From positions 1,860,001 to 1,924,000 of the forward strand of contig JAGFXX010000001.1 in the NCBI GenBank assembly GCA_017599285.1: a stretch of 64,000 nt of DNA. The letters run 5' to 3'. Made by a program: the position numbers and the translations under genes. The notes under the pieces are model-generated. The model was not told where the DNA came from and did not search any database. It saw only the letters and a list, made by a program, of their open reading frames with translations. Of this stretch, positions 20,014-22,376 are shown piece after piece. The DNA is from Cereibacter azotoformans. Its GTDB lineage: Bacteria; Pseudomonadota; Alphaproteobacteria; Rhodobacterales; Rhodobacteraceae. Positions within the stretch are counted from its first letter, which is position 1. Each line of letters begins with the position of its first letter.

Positions 20014-20043
20014 ATTCTATCTTGGTTTTAGAGGGATTGCCAA
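20014..20043 (-). promoter_or_regulatory. Putative tolQ promoter
   Basis: On the minus strand TTGGCA (20043-20038) and TAGAAT (20019-20014) are separated by 18 bases, about 45 bases before tolQ. This would allow the tol genes to be transcribed separately from ybgC. Pattern evidence only. Confidence 0.45.
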
Positions 20044-20103
20044 CACATCTGCGTCAAGTGGCAAAGCGGCGCCAACAGGGCCGATCGCGCCGGATCCGGG
20101 CCC

Positions 20104-20493
20104 TCAGCGCAGAAGCTGGCGGACTTCCGCCGGAAGGCGGGCCGCCCGCCCCTCGGGCCCGAGGCATACGAGGACCACGCGGGCGCCGAACAGCTTCTCG
20201 GGCCCGCGGAGCACATCCTGCTCGAGCACGATCCGCGCGCCCCCCGTCTCGACAAGCCGCGTCTCGACCTCGAGAAGATCGTCGAAGAGCGCCGGGCGCA
20301 GGTAGTCGGCCTCGACCCGCCGCACGGCGAAGACGATGCCGGAATCGGCCTTCAGGCGCACCTGATCCACGCCCAGCGCCCGGACCCATTCGCTCCGGGC
20401 GCGCTCGATGAACTTGAGATAGTTGGCGTAGTAGACGATTCCCGCGAGATCGGTGTCCTCGTAGTAAACGCGCAGGGCGAAACGGTGCTGCAT
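20104..20493 (-). CDS. ybgC: Tol-Pal system-associated acyl-CoA thioesterase
   Basis: This 129-residue hotdog-fold thioesterase has the family signature YYEDTDLAGIVYYANYLKF, with the catalytic Asp in EDTD. It hydrolyses short- or medium-chain acyl-CoA in the cytoplasm and is regularly found at the head of tol-pal operons. The ATG at 20493 gives MQHRFALRVYYED; the frame is open upstream without similarity. It lies 135 bases before tolQ. Confidence 0.95.
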   Translation of the reverse strand: MQHRFALRVYYEDTDLAGIVYYANYLKFIERARSEWVRALGVDQVRLKADSGIVFAVRRVEADYLRPALFDDLLEVETRLVETGGARIVLEQDVLRGPEKLFGARVVLVCLGPEGRAARLPAEVRQLLR

Positions 20494-20761
20494 GAGGCGC
20501 CTCGGAGGGGGAATCGATCTAGGGCGCGGCCTAGCCCGAAGCGGCCGCCCCCGCAAGGAAGATGCGGAAATTGCAGCCGAAATGGGCGTGCCCTCGCCCA
20601 TTCGCCATGCGGTGCGAGTGTATGCCGCACCTTTCGTTGCGCGTTTCTGCGTGAGGAAGCCGCGGCGCATGCTAACTTCGGGACCGCAGGTGCATCCGCA
20701 TCATCCCGAGGCGTGTTGCGCGTCTGATCATGAGTTCTAATGCCCGTTAGAGGAGAGCACT

Positions 20762-21055
20762 ATGTCTGATATGGAAAAGGCGATGTCGCAGATGCTGACC
20801 GACATGACGCCGAAGAAACTGCCCACCAACGAAGAGATCTTCGGCAAGGGCGCCCAGCTTGGCGACGCGAAGGCGATGGGCTTCACCGACATCCTCGATT
20901 CCATGACGCCGAAGAAGCTGCCGACCAACGAAGAGATCTTCGGCCAACTCGCCGAACTCGACACGACGGCCTTCGACGCGCTGCTCGAGCTCTTCACCCC
21001 GAAGAAGCTGATGAGCTACGACGAACTCGGGAAAAGCCTCGGCCTCAAGCTCTGA
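20762..21055 (+). CDS. Small protein with three TPKKL repeats, unknown function
   Basis: I do not recognise this 97-residue protein. It consists almost entirely of three repeats: MTPKKLPTNEEIFG occurs twice identically, 33 codons apart, and a third degenerate copy (FTPKKLMSYDELG) follows 30 codons later. Each copy is preceded by a short helix-like segment (QMLTD, DILDS, ALLEL). There is no signal peptide, no transmembrane helix, no Cys and no Trp. AGGAG lies 6 bases before the ATG, and a strong GC hairpin follows the gene, so it looks like an independently expressed, well translated monocistronic gene. Neighbours (ybgC divergent, holB downstream) give no clue. The repeats suggest a multivalent binding or scaffold protein, but that is inference. 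Confidence 0.8.
   Translation: MSDMEKAMSQMLTDMTPKKLPTNEEIFGKGAQLGDAKAMGFTDILDSMTPKKLPTNEEIFGQLAELDTTAFDALLELFTPKKLMSYDELGKSLGLKL
20804..20944 (+). repeat. 42-bp direct repeat inside the triple-repeat gene
   Basis: The 42 bases at 20804-20845 and at 20903-20944 agree at 40 positions. Both differences are synonymous third-position changes, so all 14 residues are identical. A diverged third copy begins at 20993. The spacing is 99 then 90 bases, keeping frame. Confidence 0.9.
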
Positions 21056-21091
21056 TCGTCTGAGAGGACGCTGACCCTTCGGGGCCCGGGC

Positions 21092-21111
21092 GGCCGGCCA
21101 CAGGGCCGGCC
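21092..21111 (+). terminator. GC hairpin after the triple-repeat gene
   Basis: GGCCGGCC at 21092-21099 is repeated (self-complementary) at 21104-21111 with a 4-base loop, 37 bases after the stop. The following bases (ACGTCATTT) give only a weak T tract. Confidence 0.5.
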
Positions 21112-21254
21112 ACGTCATTTCCGGCCAGCGCGCCGCGACGGCGGCGGGATCCGCTGACGGCGGGCGTCGCGCACGAGGGTTGCAATCGCCCCGGCGACCG
21201 TCCTACCTCCGGTTTGCGTGGCCCCGGCCTCGCACATCCAGCCGAGAGGAAGCG

Positions 21255-22376
21255 ATGGCGCAGCCCGCGCAGGACGAGATCCCGGAGCCCGACCGCGTCG
21301 AAGGTGCGCCGCACCCGCGCGAGACGCTGGCGCTCTTCGGGCATGAACGGGCCGAGGACGAGTTCCTCGCCGCCTTCACCATGGGCCGCCTGCATCACGG
21401 CTGGCTGATCACGGGGCCGCTGGGGGTGGGCAAGGCCACCCTCGCCTGGCGCATCGCCCGGTTCCTTCTGGCCACGCCCGAGGGCGGCGGGCTCTTTGAC
21501 GCCCCACCCCCTGCCTCGCTCGAGGTGCCGGCGGATCACCCCGTCGCGCGGCGCATGGCGGCGCTGTCGGAGGGACGGCTCTTCCTGCTCCGCCGCGCCT
21601 GGGACGAAAAGGCCAAACGGCTCAAGACCCAGATCACGGTCGAGGAGGTGCGGCGGATGAAGGCCTTCTTCGCCCTGTCGGCCGCGGATGGCGGGCGGCG
21701 GGTGGCGATCGTCGATCCCGCCGACGAGATGAACGTCTCGGCCGCCAACGCGCTGCTCAAGCTGCTCGAGGAGCCGCCCGAAGGGGTGACGATCCTCCTC
21801 GTCTGCCACCAGCCCTCGCGGCTGCTGCCCACGATCCGCTCGCGCTGCCGCGAGTTGCGCCTGTCTCCGCTCTCGCCCGAGGACATGGCCCGCGCCCTCA
21901 CCGCGGCGGGGGTCGAGGCGGGCGATCCGCAGGCCCTGGCCGAGCTGGCGGGCGGCTCGGCGGGCGAGGCGATCCGGGTGGCGAACCTGGAGGGGGTGAA
22001 GCTCTATGCGGCACTGGTGGGGCTGCTTTCGACCCTCCCGCGGCTCGACCGGGCCAAGCTCGTGGCGCTGGCGGATGCCGCATCCGGCAAGGGGGCCGAG
22101 CCGCAGTTCGAGCTGATGCTCACGCTGATCGACCTCTTCCTTGTGCGGGTGGCGCGGGCGGGCACGCTGCGGCTTCTGCCGCCCGAAGCGGTTCCCGGCG
22201 AGGGCGACCTGATCGCGCGGCTCGCGCCCGACGCGCGGGCGGCGCGGCTCTGGGCCGATCTGGCGCAGACGCTCGGAAACCGGGCACGGCGCGGGCGGGC
22301 GGTCAACCTTGACCCTGCCGCGCTTCTCATGGATATGGTTCTCCGGATTGACGAGACGGCGGCCCAGCTCGCCTGA
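21255..22376 (+). CDS. holB: DNA polymerase III delta' subunit
   Basis: Delta' is part of the clamp loader that places the sliding clamp on DNA. The 373-residue protein has a Walker A-like GPLGVGKATLA, the clamp-loader stretch NALLKLLEEPPEG and the sensor region RSRCRELRLSPL. The start ATG at 21255 follows GAGAGGAAGCG. It heads a plus-strand series holB, tatD, MBL hydrolase, AEC transporter; tmk, which often precedes holB, is not present here. Confidence 0.93.
   Translation: MAQPAQDEIPEPDRVEGAPHPRETLALFGHERAEDEFLAAFTMGRLHHGWLITGPLGVGKATLAWRIARFLLATPEGGGLFDAPPPASLEVPADHPVARRMAALSEGRLFLLRRAWDEKAKRLKTQITVEEVRRMKAFFALSAADGGRRVAIVDPADEMNVSAANALLKLLEEPPEGVTILLVCHQPSRLLPTIRSRCRELRLSPLSPEDMARALTAAGVEAGDPQALAELAGGSAGEAIRVANLEGVKLYAALVGLLSTLPRLDRAKLVALADAASGKGAEPQFELMLTLIDLFLVRVARAGTLRLLPPEAVPGEGDLIARLAPDARAARLWADLAQTLGNRARRGRAVNLDPAALLMDMVLRIDETAAQLA

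Follow-up and report, generated by a model that had tools for sequence, protein, structure and literature searches.

A soluble three-unit TPKKL repeat protein of Cereibacter and its kinship with membrane-anchored proteins of phototrophic Rhodobacteraceae

The stretch of DNA analysed here, referred to as the window, comprises 64,000 nucleotides of a Cereibacter azotoformans contig (JAGFXX010000001.1, positions 1,860,001 to 1,924,000). On its forward strand, positions 20762..21055 encode a 97-residue protein with TPKKL repeats, and in each of the six loci where this gene was found, ybgC motifs lie upstream on the opposite strand and holB motifs downstream. Translation bears out the first-pass annotation of this DNA, which had described the 97-codon reading frame with two 14-residue units that are identical and a third that has diverged. 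The identical units, MTPKKLPTNEEIFG, occupy residues 15–28 (20804..20845, forward strand) and again residues 48–61 (20903..20944, forward strand), a spacing of 33 codons, and 40 of their 42 bases are the same, the two differences both being synonymous. The third unit, FTPKKLMSYDELG, starts 30 codons past the second; positions 20996..21031 (forward strand) cover TPKKLMSYDELG. The longest exact self-repeat is thus 14 residues, against 5 at most in 1000 shuffles of the protein, and is far beyond chance for its composition. As translated, the 97-residue protein has no membrane anchor, and it is small and soluble, and most likely cytoplasmic. The short amphipathic segments said to precede the units have as their sole support a low-confidence AlphaFold model (three sequences, mean pLDDT 54.5, pTM 0.18), which suggests short helices linked by TPKKL turns and is too weak to serve as a foundation.

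In searches of Pfam and NCBIfam, nothing exceeded the curated cut-off, the single Pfam row being DNA_polI_exo1 at 16.1 bits, below its cut-off of 27, and PHROGs gave no match with E up to 1. A mobile origin was rejected, as 50,697 phage and 72,556 plasmid records gave no match with E up to 1 and the 96 candidate stretches examined from viral contigs yielded no relative; the anchored relative described below had no match in plasmids. Mimicry of the LH2 beta polypeptide, considered for the likeness of the PKKL unit to PKKVWPSGLT, was not supported, given that 11, 14, 22 and 40 of 417 control chunks scored equally against four beta polypeptides. Literature searches by short peptide and by locus tag, with supplements outside their scope, retrieved nothing on the gene. 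If hemC is RSP_0679, as we assume, counting from tolQ leaves no RSP_06xx number for it. In R. sphaeroides, tolQ is RSP_0672 according to the accessible part of PMC9275681, and the gene is not named in the accessible parts of PMC4949548 or PMC5513736.

The gene is preceded by a Shine-Dalgarno sequence, AGGAG (20751..20755, forward strand), read directly six bases before the ATG, as described at first pass; AGGAG is retained in the five Cereibacter genomes sampled, and GGAGAGCACTATG in all six genomes. The surrounding stretch, 20691..20761 on the forward strand, is highly conserved and probably constitutes a 5' leader. Across the five Cereibacter genomes, mean pairwise identity is 97.5% over these 71 bases, compared with 88% over the gene and 53% over 20493-20607, in the half of this intergenic region nearer to ybgC. 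The inverted repeat GGTGCG-N9-CGCACC (20611..20631, no strand assigned) is identical in six of six aligned genomes and is a candidate operator; a second copy was not found at up to three mismatches in the 84% of the genome searched, and a terminator scan lists the repeat as terminator-like on the forward strand (one site, 0.4 expected). Behind the gene lies the G+C hairpin reported at first pass, GGCCGGCC-ACAG-GGCCGGCC (21092..21111, forward strand), whose stem is retained and whose loop varies among the five Cereibacter genomes, the homologue of the further genus described below being left out of this alignment. The hairpin is a possible terminator; it has no T-run and is absent from the terminator scan. 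A six-codon frame starting at 20730 was dismissed because, as read from the alignment, it is not retained in C. ovatus or in the further genus. A pattern scan upstream of the gene detected no PpsR, FnrL or CenR pattern, and one loose ECF-sigma-like match, at 20725, is unconvincing so near the start codon. The gene is probably controlled as its own unit. Elsewhere in the window, positions 20042-20056 between tolQ and ybgC read AACACATCTGCGTCA. On the opposite strand this is the CenR site that has been reported for the region upstream of R. sphaeroides tolQ (accessible part of PMC9275681).

The conservation of the leader extends into the coding sequence, the leader and the first 14 codons together being about 97% identical in the five genomes, against 77% at the third codon positions of the gene. 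This contrast raises the alternative that the leader is a regulatory RNA or an RNA target, with the reading frame contained in a dual-function RNA whose transcript would matter as much as the protein. We regard this as very improbable: no Rfam match was obtained at E up to 1 over 20400-21300, the 20690-20790 segment folds no better than shuffled sequences (z -0.11), the consensus fold has compensatory changes at 2 of 37 pairs with an unfavourable covariation term, and selection on the protein is clear.

Homologues outside the strain, which the first-pass annotation had wished to see, do exist, and Rhodobacterales, the group in which it proposed to look for them, is indeed the order of the source genus, Cereibacter. 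The gene is present in five of five Cereibacter genomes sampled, the window genome included, among them Cereibacter johrii and C. ovatus, and one further genus (G118) carries a soluble homologue with 68% identity. Over the 15 pairs formed by these six homologues, NG86 dN/dS ranges from 0.03 to 0.40 rather than lying near 1, and the early proposal of purifying selection is thereby upheld. Constraint is strongest in units 1 and 2, with a pooled pN of 0.03, compared with 0.18 for unit 3 and 0.12 elsewhere. The weaker constraint on unit 3 than on the linkers does not favour three equal binding sites; the multivalent peptide-display or scaffold protein suggested at first pass is a possible reading. 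At one of the synonymous differences between the identical units, all five Cereibacter genomes have CCC in the first copy and CCG in the second; the duplication therefore predates these species, and recent gene conversion between the units is not supported.

A profile of the soluble set was searched against 394 family genomes from 393 genera, and the only distant relatives found are, by sequence, membrane proteins in which a two-helix hairpin is followed by TPKKL-type units, a relationship that emerges from this analysis. There are four of these proteins in three of the 394 genomes: L013 and a second copy at locus L042 in genome G366, L014 in G279 and L015 in G413, with E-values against the soluble-set profile of 6.7e-11, 3.6e-4, 5.9e-4 and 0.027, respectively. 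In the reverse direction, the L013 protein picks out the soluble gene in the window genome (E 2.6e-9), while the second G366 copy, L014 and L015 are linked to the family through full-length alignment. On the strength of this significant similarity of the unit module, the window protein can be placed in a TPKKL-unit family, as defined here. At E up to 10, 42 of the 394 genomes match the soluble profile, and six were kept; the weak loci L016, L017, L022, L023, L026 and L029 revealed no TPKKL units on reading, and a weak match in G050 (E 0.063), from a separate search, was dropped. A profile of the four anchored proteins recovered no further full-length member in the 394 genomes, and a class-wide search of 385 genomes yielded three matches beyond the window genome, in frames of 420-961 residues with no TPKKL units discernible by eye.

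The anchored proteins, of approximately 128-169 residues, consist of the two-helix hairpin, a segment of G-x-D-x-x-T-Q type and TPKKL-type units, the last poorly retained in L015 and in the second G366 copy. They share with the window protein a TPxKL-type unit, a D-x-K-A segment and the C-terminal unit, with which unit 3 aligns. Residues 1-12 of the window protein (MSDMEKAMSQML) align to GRDPETQMKGML, directly after the second helix of the relatives, so that the window protein starts where their hairpin ends. Unlike these membrane proteins, it is soluble and has three units, one more than the L013, L014 and L042 proteins, which align with two, and unit 2 is the extra one; L015, the most diverged, was excluded from the unit alignment.

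L013 and L014 sit between nuoE and nuoF. In both genomes (G366 and G279), the NuoE frame ends in a helix-hairpin-helix domain and the adjacent membrane hairpin bears the TPKKL units, which looks like a split of an O-chain type gene, discussed below. The anchored gene of G413 lies about 1.2 kb from divergent pucB, pucA and pucC genes (L045), where PucC matches the PUCC family at E 6.6e-155 and both short genes are LHC matches, with cco-type genes on the other side, and the second G366 copy adjoins a gene read by eye as ileS. In the window genome, the slot between nuoE and nuoF holds a short hydrophobic frame and no TPKKL protein.

The anchor itself has a wider kinship. Frames in a further 37 genomes match the hairpin part of the anchored profile, with per-genome E-values between 2.2e-6 and 0.009, and 24 of these loci were read; apart from L079, an unrelated oxidase-like frame, 22 of 23 have nuoE motifs upstream, 18 of 23 have a helix-hairpin-helix motif and, within the sequence stretch available, 14 of 23 have nuoF motifs. 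An hhalign comparison of the two hairpin alignments returned 97.6% and E 4.6e-12, a score that is not independent because its 23 nuo-slot sequences were selected by the same profile. One of these nuoE-nuoF frames (L063) matches PDB chain 8yy9_O at E 8.6e-52 over both the hairpin and the C-terminal domain. Going by PDB titles, that chain is the 'Reaction center protein O chain', 9lts_A, whose hairpin stretch is near letter-for-letter equal to that of the O chain, is 'Protein LRC', and the related chain 9wqv_a is a 'complex i 41 kd subunit'; the three entries also contain reaction-centre L chains. The anchored profile matches 9lts_A directly at E 0.018, a value weak by itself, with a score equalled by none of 2000 composition-class shuffles of the stretch and none of 295 apolar window chunks, and the match stops before the TPKKL units. 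The two-helix hairpin is common to the anchored relatives, the O chain and LRC, and the nuoE-nuoF two-helix proteins, and with the last of these the anchored relatives also share, in two genomes, the slot. The window protein, by contrast, has no N-terminal two-helix hairpin according to its translation and alignment, and it also differs from 8yy9_O in the absence of the C-terminal helix-hairpin-helix domain (translation; no Pfam match above cut-off). Neither the protein nor its profile matches any PDB chain at E up to 10, and the window protein is therefore not a recorded subunit of the solved complexes.

These positions admit an explanation in terms of complex I (NADH dehydrogenase), under which the anchored members would be nuo-operon proteins and the soluble form would aid assembly or regulation of that complex. 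The location of L013 and L014, the hairpin they have in common with the usual occupant of the slot, the nuoE motifs upstream of 22 of 23 such occupants and the title of 9wqv_a all agree with it, and it is a serious rival because O-chain type proteins are present in two genomes, G006 and G014, that have no reaction-centre match. We nonetheless consider it unlikely, since L015, the L042 copy and the soluble gene all lie outside nuo operons, the window genome lacks a TPKKL protein in its nuoE-nuoF slot, and reaction-centre chains are part of the entries that supply the PDB homologues. As a separate observation, the nuo-operon protein with two helices and a helix-hairpin-helix domain (L056, L059, L063 and other loci), which matches the O chain, is present in at least two genomes without a reaction-centre match, G006 and G014, and may have its first job outside photosynthesis.

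The distribution of the family bears on the same question. Members are found in 6 of the 394 family genomes, and nine carriers were compared: the five Cereibacter genomes, G118, G366, G279 and G413. A reaction-centre family match is present in 9 of 9 carriers and in 12 of 32 other genomes tested. PufX scores above cut-off in 91 of the 394 genomes, all five carrier genera included, for which the chance, uncorrected for ancestry, is 5.8e-4. Every carrier has six LHC matches, corresponding to two LH2 operons. Of the 85 non-carriers above the PufX cut-off, the 23 with the best scores were tested; none has six, and their matches number either two (17 genomes) or four (6 genomes). In a PufLM tree of 40 genomes, the nine carriers and a single non-carrier, G392, form one clade with support 0.974, the placement of G392 being weak (0.407). 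The co-occurrence may consequently reflect shared ancestry, and with carriers forming nearly a single clade, its exactness in this sample amounts to very few independent events.

In a further reading, the protein performs a separate cytoplasmic task, in stress, envelope or storage, having only ancestry in common with the membrane family and owing its distribution to descent. The constant ybgC-holB location in six of six loci, the missing anchor, the near-monophyly of the carriers and the upstream region, with no recognized photosynthesis-regulator site and with the ECF-sigma-like match at its unconvincing distance, are all compatible with such a task. The restriction of the family to 6 of 394 genomes, all of them phototrophs with two LH2 operons, speaks against it, as does the finding that the sole non-carrier within the clade, G392, has four LHC matches and not six, and we judge it rather unlikely.

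Our tentative preference, which falls a little short of being probable, is that a protein family of the photosynthetic membrane gave rise to the window protein as a soluble offshoot with three units, which would help on the cytoplasmic side as an accessory or assembly factor. The family relation, the kinship of the anchor with a nuoE-nuoF frame that matches an RC-LH subunit, and the fact that the carriers found are phototrophs with two LH2 operons are established by the comparisons above. The ancestor would have been anchored in, and have worked at, the photosynthetic membrane. The Cereibacter line would have lost the anchor and duplicated the first unit, probably in that order, and the gene would have acquired a conserved leader of its own. 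In its free form, the protein would serve at the cytoplasmic face, where its TPKKL units might bind a partner, as suggested by the constraint on units 1 and 2. Running counter to a photosynthetic role, the gene adjoins ybgC/tol and holB and not photosynthesis genes, no PpsR- or FnrL-type site was found upstream, and the hairpin nuo frame also occurs in G006 and G014. A bolder version, in which a photosynthetic-core subunit of the Cereibacter line became, through loss of the anchor and multiplication of its binding unit, a free multivalent adaptor that organizes or assembles LH2-rich photosynthetic membranes from their cytoplasmic face, appears decidedly unlikely.

Cereibacter (Rhodobacter) sphaeroides serves as a model organism of bacterial photosynthesis, and small accessory proteins of its photosynthetic membrane, such as protein-U (PMC8564508), are reportedly still emerging. 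Should the TPKKL protein act at this membrane, it would be encoded by an easily deleted gene of narrow range, and that gene would connect a reaction-centre subunit with the nuo operon and with the species that have two LH2 operons. Otherwise, the units still represent a clear case of the tail of a membrane protein giving rise to a free repeat protein. The second puc operon of the carriers could be read in eight of the nine (L113-L120, carriers alone) and in each encodes a PucA with a long tail rich in Ala, Glu and Pro, cut in one case by the contig end. In six of these eight loci, from four Cereibacter genomes, G118 and G413, a small conserved domain of the ..NALGYSV..NMTDANGMPV.. type forms the end of the tail.
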